Assembly (NCBI GenBank): GCA_947561395.2
Contig: OX387182.1
Location: 6,186,595 to 6,250,594 of the forward strand
Reading direction: 5' to 3'
Source: Buxus sempervirens
Taxonomy: Eukaryota > Streptophyta > Magnoliopsida > Buxales > Buxaceae
DNA length: 64,000 nucleotides
Under the pieces are notes generated by a model, which saw only the letters and a program-made list of their open reading frames with translations, was not told where the DNA came from and did not search any database. This document shows positions 2,743 to 60,100 of the stretch, piece after piece (positions within the stretch are counted from its first letter, which is position 1; the number at the start of each line of letters is the position of its first letter). The position numbers and the translations under genes are program-made.

Positions 2743-4550
2743 ATGGGTATTGCCTGGGAGCAAAGGGCTATTAGTATTCAAAGGTGGTACATCTAATCTC
2801 TATTTCATATACGAGCCTTTCGGTTTAAGTATCGATCCTCATCTTTTAAGATCTTTATTGCATGGCTACCAACCAGGAACACAGTTACGTTTTGGTGCAT
2901 TAATTCATAATTTCATATATGCCTACCACATTACATTAATAGAGATGGATCTGATATGTTTATTTATTTATTTTTTTTGTTCTGGTGTGTTCAAGGCTGT
3001 AGTCTCTGCACACGCCATATTGAACCACCGTCAGGCCAAGTAAAAGAATGGGCTTCACTTGTTCAATAGAACAAGAGAACCAAACTCCTTGTTTTATCCA
3101 TCTAACACTTGGAAAATAACTTGTATGTGTGCATGTGAAAATATAACAGGCCAGCAGAAGACTCGTATGGAACTAAAGGATCACTAGTAGTGAACAAGCT
3201 GAAACCTGTTTTAGTCTGTCCTGCAAGAGAAACTCCCAGCGATGACTATCACCTATCAAATCTCGACCAGTTGAGTTACATCTGCGAGATAGTATACTGT
3301 TTCAAGCCTGAAGATAGAAAACGAAGTAACAATGCTTTGGAAGGGATCAAAGATGCATTGGCCAAGGTGTTGGTCGATTTTTATCTCTTTGCAGGACGCC
3401 TTTCCACAGGTTCAGATGAGAGATTCTTCGTGAAATGCACAGCAGGAGGAGTCCCATTTGTTGAAGCATATGTGGAAGATGAGATCGAAGCTTTGGGTGA
3501 TGTTACAGTTCTTGATCCCCCCAAGTTACTCAAGTTCATTCATTTCATCCCCGGAGTGTACGCCTTAGATCAGTTACCTTTGTTGACAGTCCAGGTACAC
3601 TGTTACCCTAGTTTGTTCATTGTTCATCCGTAATTTGTGCGTAAATTTTTTTTTTTTATATTTTTTGATTTTCAGGTGACAAGGTTCAACTGTGGAGGAT
3701 TTGTTATTGGCGTAGCGTTCAACCATTTAATGATTGATGGACCGTCCTTGGCGGAATTCATGAATTCTTGGGCTGAAACTGCTAGGGCTGTACCTTTAAC
3801 ACTCCCTCCATTTCTGGACAGATCTATTCTCAAACCCAGGCAACTACCTAAGATCGAGTTTCCCCATCCCGAGTTCGCCAAGAAAGAACACGAAAATCTA
3901 ACAGAACAATTGGAATATGGGTCCATTTGCTTCGATCCCAGAACGCTCACACAACTAAAATCTCTTTTTAGTACATGTGATGATTCCATAAGGGAAGTGA
4001 CAAACTTTGAACTTGTTACAGCAATAATGTGGCGTAATAAGATCAAGTCACTTAACATAGACCCAGAAGAAGAAGTTGCTCTTTACATTTTCGTGAATAT
4101 ACGGACGAGACTCAAAGGGTTTTTGCCCGAAGGGTTCTTTGGCAATAGGACTGTGGTTCTATGTTCTCGTTGTAAAGCAGGTGATTTAGTTCGGGAACCA
4201 TTATCATTTGCAGTAAAATTGGTGCAAGAGCCTATTAGATTGGTTACAGAAGCATATGTTCGATCTTCCATTGACTGTCTCGAAGTGACAGAGAAGGCGA
4301 TGCCATGGAAAAATTCTACCTACGTGACTAAATTGTCTCGGTTGGCTACTTGGCTTTATATGATGCTGATTTTGGTTGGGGTCGTCCTTCTCAAATGGGG
4401 CCTGCCGTACTGGTTTATGATGAAGTTTATTACATTTCCCAGGGTAAAGATAGCGATAACGTTGTTTTATCACTCTCTCTTCCTGTTTCTTCCATGGAGA
4501 TCTTCAAAGGGTTGATGCAATCTGCAATTGAATCGAATTCGCCATTTTGA
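2743..4550 (+). pseudogene. BAHD acyltransferase (omega-hydroxypalmitate feruloyltransferase-like), one frameshift
   Basis: Three exons: 2743-2783 (ATG, MGIAWEQRAISIQ), 3150-3594 and 3676-4550, joined in phase by GT-AG introns. BAHD enzymes move acyl groups from acyl-CoA to alcohols or amines in the cytosol. The closest match I recognise is HHT1/ASFT, which feruloylates omega-hydroxy fatty acids for suberin and cutin. Diagnostic pieces are CPARETP and LSNLDQ near the N-terminus, catalytic HXXXD as HLMID (residues 179-183), and RAVPLTLPPFLDRSIL. The structural DFGWG motif lies in a different frame: relative to the family spacing there is an extra AT inside TATAT at about 4357-4362. Without the insertion the protein would be 452 aa, normal for the family. 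As it stands, the frame ends at 4515 with a foreign tail from about residue 390. This is probably a recent loss of function, unless it is a sequencing error. Confidence 0.8.
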
Positions 4551-4665
4551 AAGATTGGACGAAGCTACTGCGACTGCTGTGATTGAAAGAGGTTGATTCA
4601 AAAGTGTGAACTTTGGGTCTTCTGGTTTGAGAATAAGCTGTGCTTTAATTTGGATTTCTTATTAT
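4551..4665 (+). other. BAHD 3' flank/UTR, duplicated at 9935-10063
   Basis: The segment after the BAHD stop, ending in TGCTTTAATTTGGATTTCTT, recurs about 5.4 kb further on without the gene body. The foldback element inserted at the downstream end of this copy. Confidence 0.6.
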
Positions 4666-4674
4666 ATATGAATC

Positions 4675-7600
4675 CGGTCCGCATCCTCTCTTCTGGATGG
4701 TTGTTCGAATGGTCATTCGAACGACCAACACGCGACACGCGTCCCACCCATCCTCTCACCTTTTTCGAACGGCAACGGCCGTTGTTGCGGGTCCGTTAGT
4801 TTTTTATTGGTCTCGGTTATAAAGGGAATAGCATTGTTTGAATGAGATTCCGAAATTTCTGAAAATTTTAAAACTCCCTCTTCGTCATTTCAAAACTCCA
4901 CCTCCGGCGGACGGCTATGAAAACTCCGGTGCTTTCCGTGGAAGGGGAAGGGGTTGGGATAGCCTTGTTGCATTTCTGATTTTTTTATTAATGAGATGTT
5001 TTATTGACAACTCGGGTCGATTATTATTATTATTGTTATTATTTATGTTTTTGATTAAATGATTTATTTCGAAGGCCTTGGACGTTGACTTCGGCGGGGT
5101 GTGTGTTCACCGGTTCCTGAAGCCTGTTATAATTTGAAGTTTTGAACTGCTGGTAGACCCGATTGAACCTCGCAGCGGTTCAAGGGAATAGCGTCGTTCG
5201 AACGAGAATCCGAAATTTCTGAAAATTTTAGAACTCCCTCTTCGTCATTTCAAAATGACTTGTTTGTTCTTGGGTTGTGGCTTGATATGTGAATGTGAGG
5301 ACCATAATGAAGAGTGGGGTTCAACAGCTCAGTTACCATGTGAGAAATCCATGTCAAAGGAGGATTCTTACTCTAGTGTGTATCACCTGTCTACTTGACC
5401 TTGATGATAATCTTATAATGCTTTGATTATTGGTGCTTCCGAAGTTATTAGTTTTCCTTTGTCTTTAATTTCAAGTTTGAAATGCAAATATGATTTTGGG
5501 CAATGCGATATGAATGTAAATAAGTAGTACGAAACAATTGATACATATATGTGGAGAGAAAGAGGGAGTGAGAGAAGTGCAAGACCATTCAAAGATCATG
5601 TTGATTGATTCAAGAAAATAATTCCCCATGAGTCAGTTCACCAACGTCGTTATATTTGTACGTAATTTTAAGCTATAAAGTTAGTTTCAGATATGTTTCA
5701 CACGAAGATTGTCTATGCCTTATGAGCATGTGGTTAAATCAATTTTCATCCTATTCCCATTTTTAGGCTATAAAATTTTCTCATATCAAAATCATAATTA
5801 TGGAGCAAAGCCACCATTGTAGGGAATTAAGTCACAAGAAAATTTTATATAAGTTCAAATTAATCATTTAGGCTTCTTAACTATGGCAAATGATACACTT
5901 ACTGACAGTAATAATGCCTGGTTACAATTCCCACCATGCCCGGCTACAAGTCCCACCACGGCCCGTTACAAATCCCACCATGTCTGTTACAAGTCCTACC
6001 ATGCATGGTTAGAAGTCCCACCATGCCCGGTTACAAGTCCCACCATGCCCCGTTACAAGTCCTACCAAGCCCGGTTACAAGTCCAACCATGCCTACTTAC
6101 AAGTCCAACCATGCTCAATTACAAGTCCAACCATGCCTACTTACAAGTCCAACTATGCCCAATTACAAGTCCAACCATGCCTACTTATAAGTCCAACCAT
6201 GCCTATTTACAAGTCCAACCATGCCTACTTACAAGTCCAACCATGCCCATTTACAAGTCCAACCATGCCCAATTACAAGTCCAACCATGCCTACTTACAA
6301 GTCCAACCATGCCCAATTACAAGTCCAACCATGCCTACTTACAAGTAGGCATGGTTGGACTTGTAATTGGGCATATAAGTAGGCATGGTTGGACTTGTAA
6401 TTGGGCATGGTTGGACTTGTAAGTAGGCATGGTTGGACTTGTAATTGGGCATGGTTGGACTTGTAAGTAGGCATGGTTGGACTTGTAATTGGGTATGGTT
6501 GGACTTGTAAGTAGGCATGGTTGGAGTTGTAATTGGGCATGGTTGAACTTGTAAGTAGGCATGGTTGGACTTGTAATTGGGCATGGTTGGACTTGTAAAT
6601 AGGCATGGTTGGACTTATAAGTAGGCATGGTTGGACTTGTAATTGGGCATAGTTGGACTTGTAAGTAGGCATGGTTGGACTTGTAATTGGGCATGGTTGG
6701 ACTTGTAAGTAGGCATGGTTGGACTTGTAATTGGGCATGGTTGGACTTGTAAGTAGGCATGGTTGGACTTGTAATTGGGCATGGTTGGACTTGTAAATGG
6801 GCATGGTTGGACTTGTAAGTAGGCATGGTTGGACTTGTAATTGGGCATGGTTGGACTTGTAAATGGGCATGGTTGGACTTGTAACCAGGCTTGGTAGGAC
6901 TTGTAACGGGGCATGGTGGGACTTGTAACCGGGCATGGTGGGACTTCTAACCATGCATGGTAGGACTTGTAACAGACATGGTGGGATTTGTAACGGGCCG
7001 TGGTGGGACTTGTAGCCGGGCATGGTGGGACTTGTAACCAGGCATTATTACTGTCAGTAAGTGTATCATTTGCCATAGTTAAGAAGCCTAAATGATTAAT
7101 TTGAACTTATATAAAATTTTCTTGTGACTTAATTCCCTACAATGGTGGTTTTGCTCCATAATTATGATTTTGATATGAGAAAATTTTATAGCCTAAAAAT
7201 GGGAATAGGATGAAAATTGATTTAACCACATGCTCATAAGGCATAGACAATCTTCGTGTGAAACATATCTGAAACTAACTTTATAGCTTAAAATTACGTA
7301 CAAATATAACGACGTTGGTGAACTGACTCATGGGGAATTATTTTCTTGAATCAATCAACATGATCTTTGAATGGTCTTGCACTTCTCTCACTCCCTCTTT
7401 CTCTCCACATATATGTATCAATTGTTGCGTACTACTTATTTACATTCATATCGCATTGCCCAAAATCATATTTGCATTTCAAACTTGAAATTAAAGACAA
7501 AGGAAAACTAATAACTTCGGAAGCACCAATAATCAAAGCATTATAAGATTATCATCAAGGTCAAGTAGACAGGTGATACACACTAGAGTAAGAATCCTCC

Positions 7601-8288
7601 TTTGACATGGATTTCTCACATGGTAACTGAGCTGTTGAACCCCACTCTTCATTATGGTCCTCACATTCACATATCAAGCCACAACCCAAGAACAAACAAG
7701 TCATTTTGAAATGACGAAGAGGGAGTTCTAAAATTTTCAGAAATTTCGGATTCTCGTTCGAACGACGCTATTCCCTTGAACCGCTGCGAGGTTCAATCGG
7801 GTCTACCAGCAGTTCAAAACTTCAAATTATAACAGGCTTCAGGAACCGGTGAACACACACCCCGCCGAAGTCAACGTCCAAGGCCTTCGAAATAAATCAT
7901 TTAATCAAAAACATAAATAATAACAATAATAATAATAATCGACCCGAGTTGTCAATAAAACATCTCATTAATAAAAAAATCAGAAATGCAACAAGGCTAT
8001 CCCAACCCCTTCCCCTTACACGGAAAGCACCGGAGTTTTCATAGCCGTCCGCCGGAGGTAGAGTTTTGAAATGACGAAGAGGGAGTTTTAAATTTTCAGA
8101 AATTTCGGAATCTCGTTCAAACAATACTATTCCCTTTATAATCGAGACCAATGAAAAACTAACGGACTCGCAACAACGGCCGTTGCCGTTCAAAAAAGGT
8201 GAGAGGATGGGTGGGACGCGTGTCGCGTGTTGGTCGTTCGAATGACCATTCGAACGACCATCCAAAAGAGAGGATGCGGGCCGCGCCG
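4675..8288. mobile_element. Foldback Mutator-like element with very long inverted arms
   Basis: The element is flanked by a perfect 9-bp target duplication ATATGAATC (4666-4674 and 8289-8297), as expected for Mutator-type transposition. Its ends are inverted: the left end runs CGGTCCGCATCCTCTC and the right end, reversed, runs CGGCGCGGCCCGCATCCTCTC. Almost the whole 3.6 kb is one inverted repeat, with the left arm at 4675-6346 and the right arm at 6347-8288. The arms differ by scattered substitutions and by the length of the tandem array at the fold. No transposase is present, so it is non-autonomous. It sits in the 3' flank of the BAHD gene. Confidence 0.9.
5925..7045. repeat. 22-bp minisatellite arrays mirrored around the fold point
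   Basis: The unit CAAGTCCAACCATGCCTACT plus TA, alternating with a variant ending CCCAATTA (44-bp higher-order unit), fills 5925-6346. The same unit reverse-complemented fills 6347-7045. The outermost units in both arms are a different variant (CCCACCATGCCCGG). The right array is about 1.6 times longer than the left, so the arrays have changed length independently since the palindrome formed. Open frames rich in MPTYKSNHAQLQVQP across this stretch are translated repeats, not genes. Confidence 0.95.
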
Positions 8289-8297
8289 ATATGAATC

Positions 8298-8603
8298 ACT
8301 CTGTTTAAATTATGTTGGAATATTAAACGCATTATTTGAAGTCAAAGATAGCGGCTGATATAAAGTCGGTTGAAATATTATATAGGTCGGTTCTTGCAAT
8401 ATGGGGTTTGTAACGTCGGTCATTGAAGTAGGAATTGGTCAACTATAGTAGGCCATAAGGCGGTTAAGGTTGTCTATAAAAGGGGATCGAGTGATAATTT
8501 GTAAATAAACTAGGAAAGGGTCATAGCCCTTATCAAGAGATATCTAAGGGTTATGGAACCCCGAGATATTAAGTAATAGAGATGCGGACTCTATCATTAT
8601 TTA
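8298..8603. other. Unassigned segment with promoter-like motif
   Basis: About 300 bp between the foldback element and the SDC fragment. It has TATAAAAGG near 8474 and a composition like a retrotransposon LTR end, but I found no terminal repeat or target duplication to support that. Confidence 0.3.
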
Positions 8604-9099
8604 TGGTAACATTGGGCATCACAACAACATGAGCAATGTTTCCTTCACAAGCAAGCTGCCACCTACGAACAAAATCTTCATCTTGTGGACGCTCAAACAT
8701 AACAGTGCTGCTCAGCTCATTAAGCATGGCACTAATCCCGGCTGCTCGAAGCTGATCCTTCAGGTAATGAGCATTCCTAAGACACTTTTGAACTTCTTTC
8801 TTGAGTCCCTTGTAACCTTTCCTGTCTAAGGTGTACCAGAGAAAGATCAGAGCATGCCCATTTCAGCTGCTTGTTATAGTTGCATCCCTAGATGCAAGAT
8901 ATTCAACGTTCCTTGAAAGAGCATTAATGTGCTCTGATCTTGTTATTTTAATACCACAAGACATTGGGCATCCCACAAACTTGTGGCCAGAAACATTCAC
9001 ACTTCCAATGGGCTTCTTGAAGGAAATCATTGGTGCCTGTTCATCACAGAGAACAGTGAACTTGACAAAGGAACCAATACCCAGAACAGAATTAACAGT
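8604..9099 (-). pseudogene. Serine decarboxylase last-exon fragment (copy A)
   Basis: The minus strand matches the final SDC exon, from the PLP-lysine region SVSGHKFVG to the [10 protein letters not shown] segment. It aligns with the last exon of the intact copy at 57175-57795 but stops short of the C-terminus. It carries an in-frame stop where the others encode Arg of GSRNGHAP, plus other disruptions, and no other SDC exon is attached. It is a dead fragment. Confidence 0.85.
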
Positions 9100-9934
9100 A
9101 CGTTGTTATGTTTGATTTATTGCTGTATTTTGCTCATAAAAATAGAATATATTCCTAGTTCAGAGCTAGTAATGCCCCATGGCTTACAATCCAGGCCTCC
9201 TCTTGATGAGTCCTGGATGAACAATTTTACGGATTTTTTCCTCACTTTGTTTATTTGCATTTCTTCAACCCTTTTAGAACTCATAGGTATTGTGCCATCT
9301 ATGTATTTTGGTTGTATCAAACAAAAGATGCATAGCCAGATATTACCTCTTGTTGGGTCTGATTCACACTAAAGAGGCATGAAAAAAAATGCCCTCTCTA
9401 GGCAGAATTGTTTTATCTTCTGAGTCACATCCTAAATTATTAAAGGCGTATAGAAAAGCAGAATTATAACATGCAAAATGAGAAATAACTGCCCCTTTAC
9501 TTCCATTCATCTCATTGTCTATTTACTTACTGTTCCTGAATTGTTTTTAGTTCAGAAATCAGATGCCTACACTTTGAATGTTGCACTGCCTATTCTCACT
9601 TTTTACGGAAGCTTGATCAGCTTGAATCTTGTTCAGACGAGAACAGATAAAAGGTTGAATTACATTTTTCAAACGCAATGAATTTTGGAATCATGAGAAT
9701 ATGTTTTGCGTTTAATGGATTATAAAATCTCCAATTCTTAGTGAGATTTTTAGCATTGTTGGAATTTCGTCTTGTTTGCAGCTAGAATCGAGATTAATGT
9801 TTAAAACATGAAGCTGAATCCTTCATGTAAGCATATGAAATTGAAATCTTGCTGAGTTGTTGGGACATTCGTTGTAGTTCTTACTCATACTTGTCTAATA
9901 CTTCTATTTTCATTAATTGTTATTATTGGTTGTT
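9100..9934. other. Unassigned DNA with short open frames
   Basis: No recognisable gene. A plus-strand patch around 9164-9240 reads MPHGLQSRPPLDESWMNNF and could be exon debris, but I cannot place it in a family. Confidence 0.3.
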
Positions 9935-10063
9935 AAACAAAATCTTCGCTTTGAGACAGACGAATCAAGGATGCTGTCATTGCATGGAAGAGGCTGATTC
10001 AGAATTGTGCACCTTGGGTCTTCTGAGAATAACTTGTGCTTTAATTTGGATTTCTTATTATGT
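9935..10063 (+). repeat. Orphan copy of the BAHD 3' flank
   Basis: Closely matches 4551-4665 (for example TGTGCTTTAATTTGGATTTC) without any BAHD coding sequence before it. It marks the 3' border of a lost BAHD duplicate. Confidence 0.6.
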
Positions 10064-10065
10064 AC

Positions 10066-10430: not shown

Positions 10431-10469
10431 TTTGTTTACCCTTAAAGTGTCTTTAGAATTTGAAATTTT

Positions 10470-10865
10470 TTTTAGTGATGTTTTCTTTAAAATAATTTAG
10501 ATTCAGTCGTTCAATTCTTGAAAATTGGGAATTAATGATACCTTTTTCAAATAATTTGGATTCAGTTTCATTTTACTCTTCATAGAAATTTTTTTTCTTA
10601 CAATGCCCTCAAAAGACTTTGTAAACATTTTCATTCATTTAGGTACAAGTAAGGTTTGCAAGTCTTTTTTTTAGGGTATTTTTGGAAGAAATTCTTTATA
10701 GTCTTTTTAGGATATTTTTAGAAGAAATTTTTTATCAATAATAAAATGATACTGAATCTCAATTATTTGAAACAAGTATCACTAATTCCTAATTTTTAAG
10801 AATTGGCTGACTGAATCTGAATTATGTTGAAAAATAACATCAAAAACCAATTTTCCCATTTTTAA
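10470..10865. mobile_element. Foldback MITE, copy 1
   Basis: Inverted arms of roughly 130 bp. The left arm includes ATTTAGATTCAGTCGTTCAA and GAATTAATGATACC; the right arm holds the reverse complement of closely related sequence. A related element lies at 11020-11350. The target duplication is not clear, so the superfamily is left open. Confidence 0.6.
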
Positions 10866-11019: not shown

Positions 11020-11350
11020 GGAAACTGGGTTTTAGTGTTACCTTTTAAGATAAACCCAAATTCAGTCACCTTTTTCTTGGTAATTGGAAAATAGTGATGC
11101 TTTCTCAAAATAATTGATTATGAATGTCATTTTATGGTTAAGGAGGATTTTTTCCAAAAATTCCCCCAAAGACTTTTTTTTTAACCCCATTAAGGCATTA
11201 AGAGATGATAATAAAGAAATTGCTTACAAGTGCTTTGAGGGCATTTTTGGAAGAAGTTCTCATCAAATAGTAAAATAACACTCAGTCATTCTCAATTATT
11301 TTGAAAAAATATCACTAATTTCTAATTACAAAAAATTAAGTGATTGAGTC
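11020..11350. mobile_element. Foldback MITE, copy 2
   Basis: Same family as 10470-10865: left CCAAATTCAGTCACC and AATAGTGATGC, right TATCACTAATTTCTAATTA and AAGTGATTGAGTCCGG, in inverted orientation. Confidence 0.55.
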
Positions 11351-12153: not shown

Positions 12154-14696
12154 TCACTTATGCAAAGCACAAGCACAGTTGTCCTTCCCTATGTTAGATG
12201 CAATGCAAGGAGATCCAGTCTTCTCATCCTGGAACCAGGTTGAACGTTCCCGAATCAGCTCATTCAAGAAATTGTCAAGCTTCTCAATGGTAACATTGGG
12301 CATCACAACAACATGAGCAATGTTTCCTTCACAAGCAAGCTGCCACCCACGAACAAAATCTTCATCTTGTGGACGCTCAAACACAACAGTGTTGCTCAGC
12401 CCATTAAGCATGGCACAAATCCCAGCAGCTCGAAGCCTATCCTTCAGGTAATGAGCATTCCTAAGGCACTTTTGAACTTCTTTCTGGAGTCCCTTGTAAA
12501 CTTTAAGGTTTAAGGTGTACCAAAGAAAGATTGGAGCATGCCCATTTCGGCTGCCTGTTATGGTTGCATCCCTAGATGCAACATACTCAACATTCCTTGA
12601 AAGGAAATTTATGTGCTCTAATCTTGTTATTTGAACACCACAAGGCATTGGGCTTCCCACAAACTTGTGGCCAGAAACACTCACACTTCCAATGGGCTTC
12701 TTGAATGAAATCATTGGTGCCTGTTCATCACAGAGAACAGTTAATTAACAGTAAAAAGAAATAAATTCAGCAAAATAAAAAAGGGCAAAAAGAAAAGAAA
12801 AGAAAGAAAGCCATATATAGCTGTTATACCACCAGTTGTACTAATAAGTAGTAAGCTTTTTAGAAATTAGAGTACATACAGAAGATAGTTAATGATCCAT
12901 CATTCCATCTTTAGTCCTTAAAATTTTGCATTCATTGGCCCATCTGAATGATTATCACATGCAACACAAGCAAGTCTAACCAATCAGGAAAATCTCAAAC
13001 TATGAAAGGGGCACAAGACAAGGTGAGTTGAAAAACCTCCTAAATCTTAATATCGACAGCAGGAGGGCCAGAAGATCTTCCCCATGTACTTACACGTTCA
13101 ACAAAGGGCATCATGAGACCAAACAAAGCTCCATCACAGTGGATGTAGAATCTGTCATGTGTTAGCCCAGCTTCTTCAAGGGTTTGAATAACAAGATCAA
13201 GATCGTCGATTGCTCCTTTAACTGTTGTTCCTGCAATAGTTAAAGAGTCATTTGTGAAACATCGATCAAATCAATTCTTTTCACACACGGACACAGAACT
13301 AGAAAGGTAGAGAGAGAGAGAGCATATATACGTACCTATGTTAACATTGACGATGGCTGGTTTATCCTTGTGACGGAGAAGTTTTACCTTAAAATCTGCA
13401 CAATCAATCTCACCTGAGACTAGAGTATCGATCATGACACATTCCATTCTACCGGTACTGTTTGTGAACGTTGGGCTCTATTAATTTACCGGTAAAAGAT
13501 GAATTACCAGCGATAAGCCACTTACTGTCGGAAAGCACTTTAAAATGACACATCAAGACGAGTAACAGTCCATGAAACTGCAGAGCATGGACAGAAAAAT
13601 GGATATTTCTTTCCATAATCTATCGTTATTATTGAGATACCATAATTAATCCCCACTAATTAACAAGCGAACAACAAAAACAATATAAACAAAATGCCTT
13701 ATATCTATGCATAACTCGATCCCAAGGGGTGAACAATATAAACTAATGTCACTTAAGTATATAAATATAACTGAATGAGGTTGATTACAAGCTTGGTAGT
13801 TACTAGTTACAGCTAATATTTGGAGCTTTTGTAAGATTGTAAGAAGTGTAGTAAAAAGAAGAGAAAAATCCCATCCTTTGTTTTTTAATACATATGGCAT
13901 GATCCCATAGGATCTCACCTGAACTAGGCTGTCACATGGAATAGAGTGGCTATAAACCAAATGAAAGGAAAGTGTAACACCCCGATCCCTATAGCAAGTA
14001 TGTTGTCCCCGTTGGCCCAGCGGGTCTCATGGTTTTGCTCTTGGGACGGGTTTATCCTAAAAGGTTTCATTGCTTAAGGGTGTAATAATATATATATACC
14101 TTCAGCTTCTCCTCTTCGAACAATTTGGGATCAGGATCTCGTAGAAAGTGATGAAAATGATGGAAAATTAAGCGTATTTGTATTTCCATTATGACTGAAC
14201 AAACACAATCCTAATGGAAAAGCCCTATCTCTAATGAGAAGATTTCATGCAAGAAGATACAAAGGAAGGAAACATGAATATGGGAAAAGAAAAGAGACGG
14301 AAACAAAATTTAAAATCAAAAATGAAAAAGAAAAGAAAATAAAAAAGAAAAAGCATGCATGCATGATTAGAGCTAGACATTTTCCATACCTAAATGGTGC
14401 TTCGTTCTGTCAATTAGAAATTTTTGGCATCTTGCTAATACATTGTCCATATAGGCTTCTCTGTCTCTAGTGACCTCGTCATCTGCATCAGGCTCCGTGA
14501 CAGCAAGGCGCGTCGTATGACCATTTCTTCCAAGCACAGTTTTCTTCTCTTCACCATCGACAGGCGAATCCTTATCAACCTCTAGCGGTAAAGGCTCCGA
14601 AACCACTGCAGTTGGATCAAAATCCTGCAGCAGCGGCTCAACCTTACAATCTAATTCTAAACCAGAAGACTTATCAACTTCACAGTCTCTACCCAT
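12154..14696 (-). pseudogene. Serine decarboxylase copy B, internally deleted
   Basis: Minus-strand exons: 14696-14390 (exon 1, [20 protein letters not shown] ... [10 protein letters not shown]), a partial exon 3 at 13450-13336 ([20 protein letters not shown]), exon 4 at 13230-13094 and exon 5 at 12720-12154 ending CACALHK and a stop. Exons 1, 4 and 5 keep open frames and normal splice sites. Exon 2 and the first part of exon 3 are missing: alignment to the intact copy ends abruptly at 13450 and resumes in intron 1 at about 14262, with unrelated DNA between. PLP-dependent SDC turns serine into ethanolamine; without exon 2 the substrate pocket and part of the PLP site are gone. The C-terminus shows the ancestral ending that copy C has lost. 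Confidence 0.85.
13451..14261. other. Unrelated DNA replacing SDC exon 2 in copy B
   Basis: About 0.8 kb with no match to SDC. It contains TGTAACACCCCGATCCCTAT at about 13974, a sequence type that often begins plant LTRs, but no matching end was found. Confidence 0.4.
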
Positions 14697-27564: not shown

Positions 27565-28710
27565 TTATGTGTACCTAGAGTAATTCCCAAGTATACCCAT
27601 GGTACCCCAAAGTTTACCCCAGGTACCCTCTCGGATAACACTAGTGTATACCCATGTATACCCCAAAATACTCCCAAGAATACTTAAAGTAACTCCTAAG
27701 AGTAACCAAGGTACCTCCCAAATATACCTTAAGTATCTCCCAAAAATACCCAAATAACCTCTCAAGTATACCCCAGGTACCCCACTTCTATACCCAAGGT
27801 ACCACCCAAGTGTTACTTAAAGTACCCCTCAATTATACCTAAGGTACCCCACTTGTATCCCTAAGGTATCCTACTTTAATTGCCTAAAGTACCCCTGTGT
27901 TTACCTAAGGTATCATCTTGTGTTTGCCTAAGGTACCCATGTGTTTGCCTAAGGTATCCCCACATGTATACCTAAAGTACCCCTTATATTACCTAAAGCA
28001 CCTCACTCATATTGACTAAGGTACCCCACTGTTTTTCTCAAAGTACCCCATTCGAATACCTAAAGTACCCCCTAATTATACCTAAGATACCTCATTTGTA
28101 TTGCCTAAGGTATCTCTTTATTTTAACTAAGGTACCCTACTATCTTACTTGAAGTACCCCTTGTTTAGCTAAGGTACATTCCCTTATACAGCTAGAGGTA
28201 CCCCCTTTATATAACTAAAGTACCTCCAACATATCTAAGGTACAACCCCTATATTACCTAGGGTACACCATTGTATTTCCTAGAGGTACTCCTCTCATAT
28301 AAGTAAAGTACCCCCACTGTTTTACCTAGGGTACACCCCCTATATAGCCAAAGTACCCCCTTTGTATAACTAAAGTAACCCCTATATAAGTAAGGTTACC
28401 CCCATTATTTTGCCTAAGGTATAACCCATTATATAGTTAAGTACCCTCTTCAATATAACTGAGGTACACCCCCCTAAGCTTATCTAAAGTTTATTCTTTA
28501 GAATGACGAAGGTAAATCCCTTGAAACATCAAGGTACCTCCTCAAATAACTAAAGTACCCCTCATATAACTAAGGTACCCTTCTGTGTTAACTGAGGTAC
28601 ACCTCCCAAGCATTCCTAAAGCATGCCTTTTGAAGTGGCTAAAGCAAACACCCCACTTAACACTAAGGTACCTCTGGTATGCCTTAAGTACACCCTAGGG
28701 TTTAGTTGAA
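27565..28710. repeat. Degenerate ~20-bp minisatellite (GGTACCCC-type)
   Basis: More than fifty imperfect units of the form CCTAAGGTACCCCACTTGTA or CCTAAAGTACCCC run for about 1.15 kb in the 5' part of the LTR-like element, upstream of its TATA box. Confidence 0.9.
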
Positions 28711-32529: not shown

Positions 32530-32957
32530 GGGTTACACTTACCTCCCTTGATGTATGCTATAATTACACTTAGCTCCCTTGAGGTTTCTGAAATAACACT
32601 TTCCCCCCTTGAGATTTATGTATGGGTCAAAATAATACTCTTTCATTGAAGTTTCCATCAAAACAATAATGATAGTTGGTAAAATAATTTAAACTGGACA
32701 AGATTACCCCCATTTAAGTTAAATGATAGTTATGCCTTAGGCCATTAAAATTTTTGTTCTCATCTTTATGAAGGGGTAATCTTGTCCAGTTAAAATTATT
32801 TTACTAACAATCACTACTGTTTTGACGGAAACTTCAATGAAAGAATATTATTTTGATCCATACACAAATCTCAAGGGGGAAAAGTGTTATTTCAGAAACC
32901 TCAAGGGAGGTAAGTGTAATTATAGCATATCTCAAGGGAGGTGAGTGTAATTTACCC
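32530..32957. mobile_element. Mutator-type foldback MITE
   Basis: Inverted arms of ~200 bp. The left begins GGGTTACACTTACCTCCC and the right end, reversed, begins GGGTAAATTACACTCACCTC. Perfect 9-bp target duplication TTAAAGATT (32521-32529, 32958-32966). 428 bp, non-coding. Confidence 0.92.
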
Positions 32958-33812: not shown

Positions 33813-34390
33813 CCAAAGAGTTGTCATAAGAAGAAATTAATTAATCAAGCGCGCGTATAACTGCATTATTGCTCCAGGACTATAACTGCACTGATTCAGT
33901 GGAAGGAAGATCAAAAGAGCTCTTATGAAGCATTTGTACAGAACAATAAATTACACAGATCACTATGCTCGCAATAAAAACCAACAAAAATATCATTAAT
34001 GATCTACTTATTCACTATGTTCTTTTATCTTATATCTATTTTTATGCATACAACCTATGTTTTGCGTGGTGCCCATTATTTGATTGTGCCTCTCAACCAG
34101 AAATTCTACCAAGGATAGTATTTTATCAACACCAGAACACCCAGATATGGACTTTCTTGAACAGGTGAATAACAAGCCCAAATTAATTAAGATCTGATAT
34201 TCTCTCCTCACTTCAGAATTTGTCGGAAACAAGCTTTCTGTAAAATCTTTTCCAATTGCTCATTAATTTGATCCATGAAAAATAAGATGATATGAGATGT
34301 GACAGATGTGGAAGAAAAAATCTCCATCCAGTACCATTTCTATTCCACCATAGAAGGTGCAGGCTACTAGATAAATTAAGTGTGAAGCAT

Positions 34391-34562
34391 CACTTCCTGT
34401 GGTGGCTTTATCTGCAGCCCTTAAGTGAAGCCTCCACAGGATGCAAATACGTGTCCTGCTGCTGGAAACTACTAGTTGCGTGTTTTCATCCATAGGACAC
34501 GTGTTTGCATCCTGTGAAGGCTTCATTTAAGGACTGCAAATAGAGCCACCACAGGAAGTGAA
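34391..34562. mobile_element. Short foldback MITE
   Basis: Inverted arms of ~66 bp: CACTTCCTGTGGTGGCTTTA on the left, reverse complement of TAGAGCCACCACAGGAAGTG on the right, with central GGACACGTGTTTGCATCC. Non-coding; no clear target duplication. Confidence 0.7.
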
Positions 34563-40376: not shown

Positions 40377-41021
40377 TGATGCAGGGGGATCCGAGACAGA
40401 TGATGCGGAGCTGTCAGATTGCACATTGATGGCGCTAGAATACCATAAGTTGGCAGAGCATCGCAAAGGCAGGAAGTGATGGTGATATATTTCTTATTGG
40501 GGCAGTTTTGAGTGCGTTTTAGTATTTTGGCCATAACTTTGGCTACAGTTATCGGAATCGCGCATATGACCCCAATTCGGAAAGATATTTCCGGTGCGCA
40601 CGCCATGCTACATTGACTAAAGTCGATGTGCCCCTTTATCGACCTCCAAATCCGCTGTTTTCCCCTCCGAATTGCTATTCTTAGTTATTTGTTGCTATTT
40701 TTGGTAATACTTCCTTTGTCAATTAGGAAGTGATTTTAAACCCGATTTGGGCTAGATTTTTCATAGGATGCTTATTTATTTCTATATTTTATTTAGGCAT
40801 GCCTTAAGGGATTTTGCCGTTTTTAGTAACTTTCCAGTATAGACGATTTTTTGCTATAAAGTCCGGCTTGTGGACTTGGTTTAGGGTACTTGATGAATTA
40901 ATATTGAATTGAACCTCAGAGACGTTTTTCTCTGTGTTTTTGGGCAAGCTGCTTGTGTTCTTCCCTGTTTATCATCTGTTTGAACTAGCCTACAGAATAA
41001 TCTCTATTCTGTTTGGCGTCA
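40377..41021 (+). repeat. 5' LTR
   Basis: 645 bp, TG...CA termini, nearly identical to 45338-45981. Confidence 0.95.
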
Positions 41022-41072
41022 GTTGGTATCAGAGCTTCAACATCTTCCTGGGGTGATATTTCATCAGTTTTA

Positions 41073-44000
41073 ATGGCTGGTGGTCGTGGTCGTGGTCGTC
41101 GTGGGCAGGTTCCGAATGAGGAAGCTCAACACCATGATCGTAGCGTTCAGGATGTAATGATTGAAGATTTGCAGAGGCAAGTCACGGAGTTAACCCAGCG
41201 TCTAGCGGCGCGTGATCTCGAGGATCGTGAGGTCTCCGATCACGATTCTGATTCCACTTTCGAAAACCCCTATCACAATCGTGCTCCGGTTAGGGGGTAC
41301 CGTGGTCGGGAGGAGCGTCGTGGAGATCTCGGTTTTCGGTTCGATCTGCCAGAGTTTTCTGGTACGTTACAGGCCGAGGGATTCATTGACTGGTTAGACG
41401 AAGTGGAACGTATTTTTGATTACAAGGAAGTTTCAGATCGTTTGAAAGTGAAACTAGTTGCCATCAAACTCAAAGGCAGAGCATCTGCGTGGTGGGAGCA
41501 GTTGCGACGTTCACGAGACAGGCAAGGCAAGACCAAGATCACTGATTGGGAGAAGATGAAGAAGAAAATGAAGGGACACTTCCTTCCCTTCGGCTACACT
41601 CAAACCTTATTTCAACGACTTCATACGTTGAGGCAGGGTGCGAGATCGGTCGATGATTATACAGAGGAGTTCTACCAGTTGATCGCCCGGAACGATTTAT
41701 CTGAGACGGGGGAGCAGATGGTGGCACGGTATTTGGGAGGTTTGCGTCAAAATCTGCAAGATGTCCTCAGTCTTCATTCATTGTGGACTGTCTCGGAGGC
41801 ATACCAGCGTGCACTTGCAGTTGAAAAACAACAGAACAGGAGACCAATGATCAAGAGCGATCAAAACAATCGACCAGTTCGCCCTCAGGACCCCCGTCCT
41901 GCCCAGCAGCCACCGCAGGGTAATTCTAACTCTACTATTAGATGTTTTCGTTGTGGTGAACAGGGGCATAGAGCTACTGATTGCAGGAAATCAGTTAATC
42001 AAAAGGGCAAAAACTTGTTGATTGAGGAAGACGTGGTAGACGAGACCGAGGAGATTGATGAACCCGTGTATGATGATGATGATGCTGGCAATGTGCTGTA
42101 TGGAGATGGCCATGAGACTCTGGTCGTTCGCAAGAGTCTACTGACCCCCAAGGGCGATTCAGGGGATGATTGGTTGAGGACCAATATTTTCCATACGACC
42201 TGCACAGTTGCAGATAAAGTTTGCAAATTGATCATTGACAGCGGCAGTTGTGAGAATATAGTGTCCGAGGAGGCTGTCCAGAAATTGCAGTTGAAGACGG
42301 ACCGTCATCCTAAGCCATACAAGTTGTCGTGGCTAAACAAAGGCAGTGAGGTAACAGTTGATAGGCGATGCCTCGTGTCTTTTTCAATTGGCAGAAAATA
42401 TTTTGATAATGCCTGGTGTGATGTTGTGACCATGGATGCATGTCATGTGTTGTTGGGTCGACCTTGGCAGTATGACCGTAGTGTCGTTCATGATGGACGG
42501 AAGAATACGTACTCACTTCACATCAAAGGAAAAAAGGTTGTGTTGGCGCCCCGGCGGGAAGGACCTAGTCCTATACCGCTAACCAATAATACTAACCTGC
42601 TTTCTATGTCCAGGTTTTTAGAAGAGATTGAGCATGGAGATGTAGTATATGCTCTACTGCCTTGCGGGAGTAATACAGTGGCCATGGATTCTGACTTACC
42701 AACAGAAGTTCGGCAATTGCTATCAGAATTTGCTGACCTGATGCCAGAGGATCTTCCTCCTGGGCTACCACCTATGAGAGATATCCAGCACCAGATTGAT
42801 CTTGTTCCAGGATCAAGTTTACCTAATCGACCTGCATACCGCCTCAGTCCCAAGGAGGCTGAAGAGTTGCAGCAACAGGTAGCAGAGTTATTAGAGAGGG
42901 GTTATATTCGTGAGAGTATGAGCCCATGTGCAGTCCCTGCCCTACTTGTACCAAAGAAGGATGGTTCTTGGCGTATGTGTGTTGATAGTCGAGCAATCAA
43001 CAAGATTACTGTGAAGTACAGGTTCCCAATTCCCCGCCTGGATGATATGTTGGATCAGCTGTCCGGTTCTAAGGTTTTCTCAAAAATTGACCTTAAAAGC
43101 GGATACCATCAGATTAGAATAAGGCCTGGAGATGAGTGGAAGACAGCGTTTAAAACGCAACATGGGTTATATGAGTGGATGGTCATGCCTTTTGGGCTAT
43201 CCAACGCACCCAGTACCTTCATGAGGTTTATGCATCAGATTTTACGGCCTTTTATGGGGAAATTCGTTGTGGTTTACTTTGACGATATTCTCATTTATAG
43301 TCCAACATGGGCTTCACACTTTGATCACCTCCGTGCTGTTTTTGAGAAGCTGAAGGCAGAGTACCTATTTGTCAACCAGAAGAAGTGTTCTTTTTTCACT
43401 ACTTCTGTAACTTTTCTTGGCTTTGTTGTGTCTACTGATGGTGTTCATGCAGATCAGTCAAAAATAGACGCAGTCTTGGAGTGGCCCAAACCAAAGACCT
43501 TGCACGATGTCAGAAGTTTCCATGGGTTGGCATCCTTCTATCGACGATTCATCAGAAATTTCAGCACTCTGATTGCTCCTATTACAGAGTGCCTCAAGGG
43601 ACGAGATTTCAAGTGGTCTGACGAGGCTGAGGCTAGTTTTCAACTGGTCAAGCAGAAGATGACTGAAGCACCAGTTTTGGCACTCCCTGATTTTGACAAA
43701 GTGTTCGAGGTAAATTGTGATGCATCTGGCATTGGCATTGGTGGTGTTCTGAGTCAGTCTGGGCGTCCGGTTGCTTTTTTCAGTGAGAAGCTATCGGGAT
43801 CAAAGAAAAATTATTCCACCTATGACCTGGAGTTTTATGCCATAGTTCAGTCTTTGAAACATTGGCGTCACTACCTAGTACAGAGGGAGTTTATTCTATT
43901 TACTGATCATGAGGCTCTGAAGTACATTAATGGCCAACACAAGCTGAGTAGACGGCATGCCAAATGGGTGGCGTACTTACAGGAGTTCACCTTTACGCTG

Positions 44001-45440
44001 AGACATCAAGCAGGGAGCCTGAACCGTGTCGCAGATGCCCTAAGTCGCCGCACTTTACTTCTCACCACCATGCGTAACAGAGTTGCAGGCTTTGAGGCTT
44101 TCACCGATATGTATGCAGCTGATCCTTCCTTCGGAAGGATATTTCAGGAGGTAACTGATGGTCACCGTCATGATTTTGTTTTGCATAATGGTTACCTGTT
44201 TCGTGGATTGCAGTTGTGCATTCCAGATTGTTCATTGAGGCAGCAGATTATAAGTGAACTTCATAATGAGGGACACTTTGGCCGCGATAAGACATTGGCC
44301 CTCATCTCTTCCGACTTTTACTGGCCCAAGTTGACCAGTGATGTGGCTCATTATGTGGACCGCTGTTATATTTGCCAACGGTCTAAGGGAGTTCTCACCA
44401 ATGCAGGCCTGTACACTCCCTTACCTGTTCCTGAAGCTCCTTGGTTCGATGTTAGCATGGACTTTGTGTTAGGCTTACCCCGCACCCAACGGGCCTCGGA
44501 TTCTATCTTTGTGGTGGTTGACAGGTTTTCCAAGATGGCCCATTTTATAGCCTGTAGGAAGACTATGGATGCTGCTCGGATCGCCCATCTATACTTCAAG
44601 GAGATTGTGCGTTTGCATGGTGTTCCTCGATCTATCACATCAGATCGTGATACCAAGTTCATCAGTCATTTCTGGCAGAGCTTGTGGGGGAAACTGGGGA
44701 CACAACTGAATTTTAGCAGCGCCTACCACCCCCAGACGGATGGCCAGACCGAGGTGGTGAACCGAAGTTTGGGCAACCTTTTGAGGTGTTTGGCAGGAAC
44801 TAAGCCAAAGCAGTGGGATTTGGCATTACCTCAGGCAGAATTTGCCTATAACAGATCGAAAAACAGAACTACAGGCTTAAGCCCATTTGAGATTGTCTAT
44901 GGTCAAAACCCATCCGGGGTGCTAGACTTAGCCCCTATTCCACGTATAGGACGTTTCAGTCCTAAAGCAGATGAGATGGCGGCGCATCTTCGGGGTATCC
45001 ATGAGCAAGTAAAACTGGCCATTGAGGAGAGCAATACCAAGTACAAGACTCGGGTTGACAGTCATCGTCGTCAGGTACTTTTTGATGTTGGTGACTTTGT
45101 TTGGGCAGTATTAACTCGTGATCGTTTTCCTGCTGGGGAGTATAATAAGCTTAAGGACCGGAAGATTGGACCTTGTGAGGTACTGCAGAAGATCAATGAT
45201 AATGCTTACAGGATGCGCCTGCCCAGTCACTTGAGGACTTCTGATGTCTTTAATGTGAAGCACCTAAGTCCTTGTTTTGGGGATTCGGATGACACTAGTC
45301 TGAACTCGAGGACGAGTTCTTTCCAACCTGGGGCGACTGATGCAGGGGGATCCGAGACAGATGATGCGGAGCTGTCAGATTGCACATTGATGGCGCTAGA
45401 ATACCATAAGTTGGCAGAGCATCGCAAAGGCAGGAAGTGA
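41073..45440 (+). CDS. gag-pol polyprotein of the Ty3/gypsy element
   Basis: Single frame of about 1455 residues from the ATG at 41073. In order: gag capsid domain (about 41340-41840), CCHC zinc knuckle CFRCGEQGHRATDC (about 41943-41984), aspartic protease with IDSGS (about 42232), reverse transcriptase with YFDDIL (about 43276), RNase H (about 43700-44060), integrase HHCC zinc region (about 44250-44380) and catalytic core (about 44450-44900), then a GPY/F-type C-terminal module (about 45160-45270). No classical chromodomain is evident; the tail extends into the 3' LTR. Confidence 0.93.
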   Translation: MAGGRGRGRRGQVPNEEAQHHDRSVQDVMIEDLQRQVTELTQRLAARDLEDREVSDHDSDSTFENPYHNRAPVRGYRGREERRGDLGFRFDLPEFSGTLQAEGFIDWLDEVERIFDYKEVSDRLKVKLVAIKLKGRASAWWEQLRRSRDRQGKTKITDWEKMKKKMKGHFLPFGYTQTLFQRLHTLRQGARSVDDYTEEFYQLIARNDLSETGEQMVARYLGGLRQNLQDVLSLHSLWTVSEAYQRALAVEKQQNRRPMIKSDQNNRPVRPQDPRPAQQPPQGNSNSTIRCFRCGEQGHRATDCRKSVNQKGKNLLIEEDVVDETEEIDEPVYDDDDAGNVLYGDGHETLVVRKSLLTPKGDSGDDWLRTNIFHTTCTVADKVCKLIIDSGSCENIVSEEAVQKLQLKTDRHPKPYKLSWLNKGSEVTVDRRCLVSFSIGRKYFDNAWCDVVTMDACHVLLGRPWQYDRSVVHDGRKNTYSLHIKGKKVVLAPRREGPSPIPLTNNTNLLSMSRFLEEIEHGDVVYALLPCGSNTVAMDSDLPTEVRQLLSEFADLMPEDLPPGLPPMRDIQHQIDLVPGSSLPNRPAYRLSPKEAEELQQQVAELLERGYIRESMSPCAVPALLVPKKDGSWRMCVDSRAINKITVKYRFPIPRLDDMLDQLSGSKVFSKIDLKSGYHQIRIRPGDEWKTAFKTQHGLYEWMVMPFGLSNAPSTFMRFMHQILRPFMGKFVVVYFDDILIYSPTWASHFDHLRAVFEKLKAEYLFVNQKKCSFFTTSVTFLGFVVSTDGVHADQSKIDAVLEWPKPKTLHDVRSFHGLASFYRRFIRNFSTLIAPITECLKGRDFKWSDEAEASFQLVKQKMTEAPVLALPDFDKVFEVNCDASGIGIGGVLSQSGRPVAFFSEKLSGSKKNYSTYDLEFYAIVQSLKHWRHYLVQREFILFTDHEALKYINGQHKLSRRHAKWVAYLQEFTFTLRHQAGSLNRVADALSRRTLLLTTMRNRVAGFEAFTDMYAADPSFGRIFQEVTDGHRHDFVLHNGYLFRGLQLCIPDCSLRQQIISELHNEGHFGRDKTLALISSDFYWPKLTSDVAHYVDRCYICQRSKGVLTNAGLYTPLPVPEAPWFDVSMDFVLGLPRTQRASDSIFVVVDRFSKMAHFIACRKTMDAARIAHLYFKEIVRLHGVPRSITSDRDTKFISHFWQSLWGKLGTQLNFSSAYHPQTDGQTEVVNRSLGNLLRCLAGTKPKQWDLALPQAEFAYNRSKNRTTGLSPFEIVYGQNPSGVLDLAPIPRIGRFSPKADEMAAHLRGIHEQVKLAIEESNTKYKTRVDSHRRQVLFDVGDFVWAVLTRDRFPAGEYNKLKDRKIGPCEVLQKINDNAYRMRLPSHLRTSDVFNVKHLSPCFGDSDDTSLNSRTSSFQPGATDAGGSETDDAELSDCTLMALEYHKLAEHRKGRK

Positions 45441-49612: not shown

Positions 49613-51072
49613 CAGCCATTGCTTCTCCTGTGTGTAGTGTCGCAGGTATTGCTTCGCTCCTATTCCGGCTGCCGAATCCGTTGCCGTTGCCGTGATCTAG
49701 TTGTTCTGCCGGAGAAACCCCTCCAGGCAGTCTTGCGAGCACATTGCTGGGTTTGTCGACTGGAGAATCCCCACCACGGAAGAGAGTGCTTTTGATTGTG
49801 CTTATAAATTTGAAATAGTTTTTGACATGTTTGATATTTAAAATCCTTGAAGTTAAAATAAATTTTAAATTACCCTTTCACCCCTATTTATAATTTTTTT
49901 TTTATATTTTAGAATATTAGAAGCTAATATGTTATATTAAGTTCTTATAATTCCTTCATGGATCATAATATGTTATGGTTCTACTATTTGTTTTATAGCT
50001 ATATCTTACTATTTATTTTATGGCTATAATTTTACTATTTAACACCGCTCAAGCAAGGCTAATCATCTCAACCAGTGCCGTTGGTCTTCTTCACTGACAT
50101 GATTATTAATTTCCTTCCATCTAATGTCAGAATTTCGACTTCCGACAGATCTGTCTTGATCGGATTAGTTGTGTTTTGAGTCCTTTCATATGATTGCATG
50201 TTTAGGCCCATTAAAACTTTCTTACGGTATTTATGGAAAGATTTATATTAATATAGTATTAATCAAAATTAGGTTTTGAATTATTACTTTCCAAACACAC
50301 TTTTGTTGATTTTAAAAACAATAATTGGTTTTTTTATAAATTGTTACCAAAAGAGTTTCTTGTCACCTGTTTTTAAAACCAAAAAACAATTGGAGATGTT
50401 TTTAGTTTGAAACTGTTTTAAAAAAAAGAGAGAAAAAGAAAACATTACCAAACATCCTCGATGCTGAAAATATTTTCGGTAGAAAATTTATTTTCCGTCA
50501 TGTTTGTGTTGTAAAACTATTTCCAGAAATATTTCTTTTTTCAAAAACAAGTCAATTGCTTAGAAAATGCTTTATACTTCTCGAAATCTTACATTTCATT
50601 TTTAAGAAATTCAAAATTAAAGTGAGACACCATCAATAACGCCACACAACCAACTTTCATCATCGTCTCTACCACCACCATGAGTATAACATCACCACCA
50701 CTGCTACACCACCAAGCTAAGATAGTTTTTCTTTTTTCTTTTTTCTATCCTGAGATATTGTTTCCCCTTAAAATGTCTTTAGAAATTTTAAAATACAGAT
50801 GACTGCACAAGGTGGGCCCCATACATTTGTGTGTTGTTGCACGGTGCAGATGATGTGAATTGTTCAGATGAATTTCCTACTCAAATAATTATTCACAACT
50901 TATACCTACCCACGTTGAACTGTTTGTGAATGTAACACAGCGTGAGAGTTTGTAGGAAAAATTCTAAAGACTTCTTTGTATTTTGTTTTTTCAATTATTA
51001 TTATTATTTTTATTTGTGGGTATATACACTGACCTGGCTAGGGAGACAAGACAATACCTTACAGGTGCCTAG
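49613..51072. other. Intergenic DNA with one dispersed repeat
   Basis: No gene recognised. 50455-50725 is the diverged partner of the repeat at 10066-10430. Confidence 0.4.
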
Positions 51073-57174: not shown

Positions 57175-60100
57175 TTAAAAAATAAAATTGTCCTTCCCTA
57201 TGTTAGATGCAATGCAAGGAGATCCAGTCTTCTTATGCAAAGCACAAGCACAGTTGTCCTTCCCTATGTTAGATGCAATGCAAGGAGATCCAGTCTTCTC
57301 ATCCTGGAACCAGGTTGAACGTTCCTGAATCAGCTCATTCAAGAAATTGTCAAGCTTCTCTATGGTAACATTGGGCATCACAACAACATGAGCAATGTTT
57401 CCTTCACAAGCAAGCTGCCACCTACGAACAAAATCTTCATCTTGTGGACGCTCAAACACAACAGTGCTGCTCAGCCCATTAAGCATGGCACTAATCCCAG
57501 CAGCTCGAAGCCTATCCTTCAGGTAATGAGCATTCCTAAGGCACTTTTGAACTTCTTTCTTGAGTCCCTTGCAACCTTTTCGGTTTAAGGTGTACCAGAG
57601 AAAGATTGGAGCATGCCCATTTCGGCTGCCCGTTATGGTTGCATCCCTAGATGCAAGATACTCAACATTCCTTGAAAGGGCATTAATGTGCTCTAATCTT
57701 GTTATCTGAACACCACAAGGCATTGGGCATCCCACAAACTTGTGGCCAGAAACACTCACACTTCCAATGGGCTTCTTGAATGAAATCATTGGTGCCTGTT
57801 CATCACAGAGAACAGTTAACATGAAAAAGGAATCAATACCCAGAACACAATTAACAGTAAAAAGCAATGAATTCAGAAAATAAAAAAGGGAATAGAAAAA
57901 GAAAAAGAAAGAAAGCCACATATAGCTGTTATACCGCCAGTTGTACTAATAAGTAGTAAGCTTTTTAGAAATTAGAGTACATGCAAAAGATAGTTAATGA
58001 TCCATCATTAATCCATCATAATTTCTATCTTTAGTCCTTAAAATTTTGCATTCATTGGCCCATCAGAATGACTATCACAAGCAAGTCTAACCAATCAGGA
58101 AAATCTCAAACTGTGAAAGGGGCTCAAGACAAGGTGAGCAGAAAAACCTCCTAAATCTTAGTATCTACAGCAGAAGGGCCAGAAGATCTTCCCCATGTAC
58201 TGACACGTTCAACAAAGGGCATCATGAGACCAAACAAAGCTCCATCACAGTGGATGTAGAATCTGTCATGTGTTAGCCCAGCTTCTTCAAGGGTTTGAAT
58301 AACAAGATCAAGATCGTCGATTGCTCCTTTAACTGTTGTTCCTGCAATATTTAAAGAGTCATTTGCGAAACATAGATCAAATCAATTCTATTCACACGCA
58401 GACACAGAACAAGAAAGGGAGAGGGAGAGAGAGAGAGAGAGAGAATATATATGTACCTATGTTAACATTGACGATGGCTGGTTTATCCTTGTGACGGAGA
58501 AGTTTTACCTTAAAGTCTGCACAATCAATCTCACCTGAGACTAGAGTATCAATCATGACACATTCCATTCTGTACATTCGTCCAGCTTTGAAAATAGAAT
58601 AATGCGAATCTCGTGATGCATATAGAATACCATCAGGAAACACTTCTCTCCTGCATCACCAGATCATGTTCAATTTCACTCTCAAGCATGAATTAATAGG
58701 TCTAATTTGAAAATAAAAAGCTTTCAAGCCAAAGCTGATCAAAGTTACTAACCCTACTAAGATACCGTGAAGATTGCCTTCTGTACCACCGTTTGTAATA
58801 TATCCCCAGTATTCACTTTTCTCTATTTCCCATAAACAGGCGAACCAATCTAAAACAGCCACTTCAAATTGCCTGGAATGGACACCATAGTTGCTCTCAA
58901 TGAAAGGGTCACCAAGGTTGTTGATGGAAAAGTGTTGCAGCTCAGACAAAGCACCATAATCGAAGTCTAGATTAAAAGGGTAACCTGTGAAAAAAATTCA
59001 ATAATCAAAATCAATGAACTTGTTTTAATCCAGGATATTGTAAATGAAAGATACGATTCAGACTCCAAATCCATCTAGAGGAGGGTTTTGGGGATGATTT
59101 GGGTGGTCGGGGTGGGGGATGTAAATAGGTGTAGCATCGCAGAATTAAAATTTTTACTATATTCAAAGACAAGTCTTTGAATAATAAGGCATACACAAAT
59201 TCTCAATTAAATCCGAAATATGCATATAACATCCACACAAATTGCAAGTAAATAAATAAAGCAAGTAAAAGCAATAAAGGAGAGAATTAATTTGGTGACG
59301 AAGGAAAAACTCAAAGAAAACTCTCTATGAAAAAAAAAACCCTCGTAGCTATGCAGGAGCCACTTACAAATCCACTATGAGTAGAACACTTACGGACCGT
59401 GGTTCAGAAGACTCAAAAATCCTGTTGCTAGATTCTACAACTCACTACCTGTCATGTAACTGGAAAACTCTTCAATCTGCCATCAGCAGCACTCCAAATC
59501 TCCAAAGATCTTCTTACATGACCATCCAAATGAACTCGTCTGATCTTGTGAGAACTCCCATGTGCAATTATCCCCAACCCAAACTCCAAGGCTTTAAACA
59601 AGGAAGAATCGAAGAAGAGATAATTCAAAGAGAGAAAATTATAAGACAGTATTTTTATCTGAAGGATAGGGCTTCTAGGGTTCTCAAAATAATCTCCAAC
59701 TTGTGTTAAACACGAACCATAAATTCCAATAAGTAGAGATAAGATAGGAATTGAATTAGAAAATAAAAATCTGAGTTTTAAAATTTCCGGAAGCCTCACA
59801 CTCGAGTGTAGGGTCGGGTGTGGGATGAGCATGAAGGCTTATTGAGTAAAAACCTCTTCATGCTGGAGTCAGGCTCGTCCTCAATGCTTGGTCGGAAACA
59901 TTCGTTGAATCTTGTAGCTCAAGCGACCCATCGTGTTAATGCCACGCTCGATCTCGGGTCAAGCGCAATGCTCAAAATCAATTAATTTGTTCTTTATGCT
60001 TGAGGATGGCTTGAGCGGCTGTCAAGTGCCAATCAATATCTTGCTTATTTCAATTTCTTTTTTCAACCCCGTTTAAACCACAACTCCTAGAACTAAACCC

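Follow-up and report, generated by a model that had tools for sequence, protein, structure and literature searches.

How does a transposable element come to consist almost entirely of two facing copies of the same sequence? The origin of very long foldback arms has mostly been inferred after the fact. A locus on contig OX387182.1 of Buxus sempervirens raises this question within a single insertion. In the 64,000-nucleotide stretch that was analysed (the window), the whole of 4675-8288 (3614 bp) is a single long inverted repeat, nearly from end to end. Here, we show that the arms of this element fall into two zones, an outer one that has diverged and an inner one that is nearly identical. The boundary between them is sharp, and therefore a proposed repair route becomes testable and its steps can be ordered within one copy. 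We favour an origin in which the interior of a Mutator-type element (MULE) with ordinary terminal inverted repeats (TIRs) became an inverted copy at a later time, by repair that was templated by the opposite end and joined within a minisatellite. We put the probability of this reading at roughly 0.55.

Anatomy and insertion signature

Going inward, each arm starts with an outer zone, followed by a unique inner zone and then by a 22-bp minisatellite (Table 1). Two pairs of inverted stretches make up the arms, one of 1484 nt at 99% identity (4863-6346 with 6613-8096) and a terminal one of 198 nt at 95% (4675-4872 with 8086-8283), which runs on into the inner arms. An exact 9-bp direct repeat, ATATGAATC, abuts both ends of the element, and both ends start with CGG as read from the sequence. 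The last five bases of the right terminus are without a partner in the left arm. Shared runs of at least 9 bp are rare by chance: random 26- and 20-bp stretches from the window, with pairs less than 100 bp apart skipped, had one in 31 of 20000 draws.

Table 1. Features of the foldback element and its flanks (positions in the window)
Feature	Position	Strand	Remark
Left target-site duplication ATATGAATC	4666-4674		exact 9-bp match
Outer TIR zone, left arm (older, or not converted)	4675-4941	+	267 bp with 12 differences between the arms
Left inner arm (younger or homogenised)	4942-5913	+	2 differences in 972 bp; six frames without a Pfam domain
74-bp direct repeat in arm, outer copy	4822-4895	+	
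74-bp direct repeat in arm, inner copy	5182-5255	+	92% identical to the outer copy
Left 22-bp minisatellite	5914-6340	+	
Symmetry centre, 2-nt spacer (AC)	6341-6342		32-bp perfect palindrome arms on either side
Right 22-bp minisatellite	6343-7045	-	longer than the left: unit gains on the right or losses on the left
Right inner arm	7046-8017	-	
Right outer TIR zone	8018-8288	-	includes five unpartnered terminal bases, 8284-8288
Right target-site duplication ATATGAATC	8289-8297		exact 9-bp match

Taken together, the element is best read as a non-autonomous Mutator-type foldback insertion. Its target-site duplication (TSD) of 9 bp has the usual Mutator size (PMC3169594), and its TIRs are long, as in most plant MULEs. 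The long inverted repeats account for most of the element and the arms contain tandem repeats, as expected for a foldback. A Pfam scan that covered 4684-5915 in the left arm, translated in all six frames with stops as X, gave no family below E 0.001. A captured host gene or a transposase remnant in the arm was considered and rejected, the sole weak match being COMM_domain at E 0.07, under its cut-off. Open frames inside the arrays are what a stop-free repeat unit yields. Helitrons are without a TSD and without terminal inverted repeats, and this class is ruled out since both are present here. An initial annotation of this DNA had already recognised the arms as inverted copies, the perfect flanking 9-bp duplication and a Mutator-type foldback insertion. 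The two arm pairs and the exact match on both sides bear out the first two points, while the TSD, TIRs of more than 100 bp and a left arm without a detected domain support the third.

Long palindromes are a known read artefact, and a read folded back on itself or an inverted copy joined in error could be suspected here. The exact TSD with different flanks, the 14 differences between the arms outside the arrays and the unequal lengths of the arrays argue against this, and we regard an artefact as extremely improbable. The same substitutions, unequal arrays and TSD uphold the initial annotation, which had held that the structure is not a simple product of the assembly.

Surroundings of the element

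Upstream of the element lies a transferase-family gene, with matches to PF02458 in both of its pieces (3190-3633 and 3637-4515); we take it to be of the BAHD type. Its C-terminal end is in another frame with a stop at 4548-4550, and the element starts about 125 bp past this stop, so that its placement just after an acyltransferase gene, as previously described, holds. The shift of frame near the C-terminal end of this gene (3190-4550) may reflect a pseudogene, a further intron or a sequence error. The stretch that follows the acyltransferase stop (4584-4668) has a paralogous counterpart at 9985-10064 with 83.5% identity, and the match ends inside the left TSD. On its other side, BLAST found nothing in common between this counterpart and the right flank, and an empty site is therefore not demonstrated.

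Several other repeats and genes occupy the window. A self-palindrome of about 420 bp at 32533-32950 (85%), with 30-bp repeats near both ends, is MITE- or foldback-like, and further palindromic stretches at 10463-10853 (74%), 11062-11347 (69%) and 34390-34561 (82%) are perhaps MITEs. Four stretches are alike, 8602-9100, 12287-12744, 57361-57859 and 62278-62778, with 92-94% identity to the 8602 piece, which starts about 300 bp to the right of the element; matches to pyridoxal-dependent decarboxylase occur in the region. A Ty3-type polyprotein with an open frame of 1475 aa is located at 41013-45440; its domains are gag, protease, RT, RNase H and integrase. Additional domain matches in the window are to ANF_receptor, Lig_chan, PORR and pieces of pyridoxal-dependent decarboxylase, and together with the polyprotein they are in keeping with plant chromosomal DNA.

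Two zones of divergence in the arms

Without the arrays, the arms align over 1239 positions with 14 differences, namely 13 substitutions and one missing base; this count leaves out the five unmatched right-terminal bases. The differences are distributed very unevenly: the outer 267 positions account for 12 of them and the inner 972 for 2. A single change-point fits best at 4941 (counterpart 8018 in the right arm), and an equally strong step arose in none of 5000 random placements of the 14 differences. The 319 bp directly inside the step contain no difference at all. Counting substitutions only, 11 in 267 outer positions stand against 0 in these 319 (Fisher p 1.6e-4). The initial annotation missed this step between two arm zones. 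It had called the foldback near-perfect, which is correct for the mirror but not for its uniformity, since the label averages two very different zones.

Methylation-driven mutation was tested as the origin of the step and is ruled out by the cytosine contexts. The difference-free 319 bp hold 54 CG or CHG positions, compared with 66 in the 267 bp of the outer zone. Sorted by the base in the left arm, 4 of the 11 outer substitutions are at A or T, 3 at CHH, 3 at CHG and 1 at CG positions.

The same step could come from recurrent conversion or from an end exchange with another copy. In the first case, the foldback would be of a single age, and recurrent gene conversion through hairpin or cruciform pairing would have homogenised the inner arms while the outermost 267 bp escaped. 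Such conversion would leave the same divergence step, and arms that can pair along their length, as the RNA fold described below suggests, make good conversion partners. A single abrupt boundary, and just 2 differences among the 972 inner positions, look more like one event than like patches, which tips the balance slightly the other way. We consider recurrent conversion possible, although rather unlikely.

In the second case, the element would be a chimera, one end of which was swapped with that of another family member, and the inner arms would represent the original young foldback. Chimeric copies have been reported for Galileo (PMC3573991), and the five unmatched bases at the right terminus would fit a foreign end. 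A 74-bp segment that occurs twice in each arm bears on this point. Its outer pair differs between the arms at 3 of 74 positions and its inner pair at 0 of 74. With the inner copy as outgroup, the left arm accounts for one of the changes in the outer copies and the right arm for two, so that both arms have derived changes of their own, as decay in place predicts, although three changes leave room for an exchange. Overall, we find a chimeric origin quite improbable. The 74-bp comparison is consistent with two-zone ages, in small numbers.

The minisatellites and the centre

Arrays with a period of 22 were detected at 5914-6346 (19.7 copies) and 6382-7037 (29.9 copies), the right one being the longer. 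The two minisatellites abut head to head at the 2-nt spacer, which is framed by the arms of the perfect palindrome (Table 1). In our own reading, two units may have been joined at the centre with an overlap of four bases, AAGT (6343-6346). In the left array, no two of the eight outer units are of the same type; in the right array six of the eight have identical counterparts, and the other two are one base off each. Further inside, two roughly alternating unit types make up 6 of 12 pieces on the left and 14 of 24 on the right, the remainder being variants. Because these two types tend to alternate, a 44-bp period appears. The eight distinct outer units and the alternating inner types agree with the earlier description of a 22/44-bp minisatellite with graded variants.

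When whole-unit gaps are allowed (of 7, 1 and 1 units), the left array can be aligned on the right one over 432 positions with 6 substitutions; the 70 nt of the right array that lie nearest the centre are not part of this alignment. At first this seemed to be convincing evidence that the arrays are colinear throughout. However, shuffled inner unit orders scored as high as the real order or higher in 50 of 400 trials of the gapped alignment, and therefore neither colinearity nor copying of the inner array is established. Three rare units (types 10, 12 and 13) sit in an identical 10-11-12-13 block of both arrays. Shuffling the left units 200000 times reproduced the exact block 602 times, in a test picked after the block had been seen. 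Looser tests, equally post hoc, found the rare trio in the same order within four units in 5071 of 200000 shuffles and in the same order anywhere in 33206 of 200000. The order of the inner units may thus hint weakly at copying.

A second, more decayed tandem array with a 22-bp period (CCTAAGGTACCCC-like) is located at 27589-28580. A link between this array at 27.6-28.6 kb and the element was rejected, there being no BLAST match at E 1.

RNA fold and copies

The computed RNA fold of 4675-8284 has an energy of -3211 kcal/mol, and 1231 of 1239 left-arm positions are paired within 6 nt of their cognate. A full-length transcript would be predicted to form a long duplex that could feed siRNA production. 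One may go further and imagine a recent natural silencing locus of the Mu killer type, in which repair from the opposite end has made a hairpin gene out of a MULE that had been quiet. The minisatellite would have provided the join, and transcripts reading through from the adjacent gene would now give rise to siRNAs that target the family. We regard this as a long shot.

A BLAST search of the window with the element at E 0.001 gave 58 pieces, all of them within it, so that copies elsewhere in the window were not detected. With a less strict threshold, a simple-repeat piece of 24 bp (5017-5040) matches 50991-51014. A 24-mer of the TIR had no exact match in viral and prokaryote contigs and a 27-mer of the minisatellite none in viral contigs; these are not plant collections, and the result says little. 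A 13-mer of the element occurs in the text of three papers. In the yam paper (PMC6540704), the surrounding sequence diverges from the element, and the other two are by title about human cells.

A proposed origin of the mirrored interior

The favoured reading, repair templated by the opposite end, can be laid out as a series of steps. The starting point would have been an element whose TIRs were of the ordinary kind, with a length near 270 bp or a little above it, and had drifted about 4.5% apart. We assume that the edge of these TIRs coincides with the divergence step. Later, an internal break would have been repaired with the opposite end as template, with strand invasion within the TIR. Copying would have proceeded towards the centre, across some 1 kb of unique sequence, until it reached the minisatellite, where the join would have been made inside the repeat at the 4-bp AAGT match. 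In this way, the interior of one side would have given way to an inverted copy made from the opposite side. Afterwards, the unit numbers of the two arrays would have changed independently.

We infer copying from the opposite end, a join in the array and this order of events because several observations point in the same direction. These are the TSD with CGG ends, the divergence step, the 319 bp free of differences in spite of their CG and CHG positions, and the nearly spacerless centre. To them are added the eight outer array units common to both arms with two substitutions, and the shared 10-11-12-13 block. The reading is also preferred because such a route has been published for Galileo (PMC3573991) and a corresponding layout for Mu killer (PMC3440606). 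Against it stands that the window and the viral and prokaryote contigs searched yielded neither a further copy nor a relative whose interior is not mirrored, and that the left arm yielded no transposase.

Comparison with known systems

The general kind of element, a Mutator-type foldback with tandem-repeat arms, is already published. The initial annotation had considered it unusual, which does not hold in view of Tm1 and Tetris and of FARE as cited in the Tm1 paper. The paper on Tetris states that most foldbacks seem to be Mutator elements (PMC4079207). FARE from Arabidopsis resembles the Buxus element as a plant foldback, and is cited as having a transposase with a MULE domain (PMC3169594). 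In the plant MULEs with multiple TIRs of Ferguson and Jiang, part of the terminal sequence recurs inside the arm as well. There, external and internal TIRs have to be alike over at least 100 bp, whereas the Buxus element repeats 74 bp at 92% (PMC3310237).

Two animal elements come close in design. Tm1 of root-knot nematodes is described as a Mutator/foldback element with a 9-bp TSD, unmatched terminal bases and TIRs with short tandem repeats in unequal number; in contrast to the Buxus element, its repeats are of about 14 bp, sequence separates the TIRs and a Phantom-type transposase is known in the family (PMC3169594). Tetris of Drosophila virilis is a non-autonomous foldback with a TSD of 8-10 bp that its authors assign to Mutator, and its TIRs of up to 1735 bp are composed of flanking, tandem-repeat and inner domains. 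It differs in its repeats of about 220 bp, in a middle domain that separates the arms and in the three structurally complete copies known (PMC4079207).

The route itself has been proposed for Galileo, a Drosophila element of the P superfamily. Its TIRs are proposed to have been lengthened by inverted recruitment of the adjoining interior, giving TIR1-F1-F1-TIR2, and tandem-repeat expansion is unequal between the two TIRs of one copy (PMC3573991). However, the transposase superfamily and the host are different, and its tandem repeats are about 210 bp long (PMC3573991). A previous case in which the two arm zones of one copy were ordered by divergence was not noticed in the literature searched, a scope that left most subscription journals outside.

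The layout recurs in Mu killer, a derivative of maize MuDR, both halves of which run from TIRA about 1.3 kb into mudrA (PMC3440606). Both are Mutator elements beside genes, and in both the ends and the adjoining interior are present as facing inverted copies, in the Buxus element mirrored around one junction. Transposase gene sequence is present in Mu killer, which silences MuDR, while no transposase homology was found in the scanned left arm of the Buxus element. The centre of Mu killer resisted amplification (PMC3440606), whereas that of the Buxus element is assembled and lies in a minisatellite. The Buxus element offers a plant example of the Mu killer layout with its centre read.
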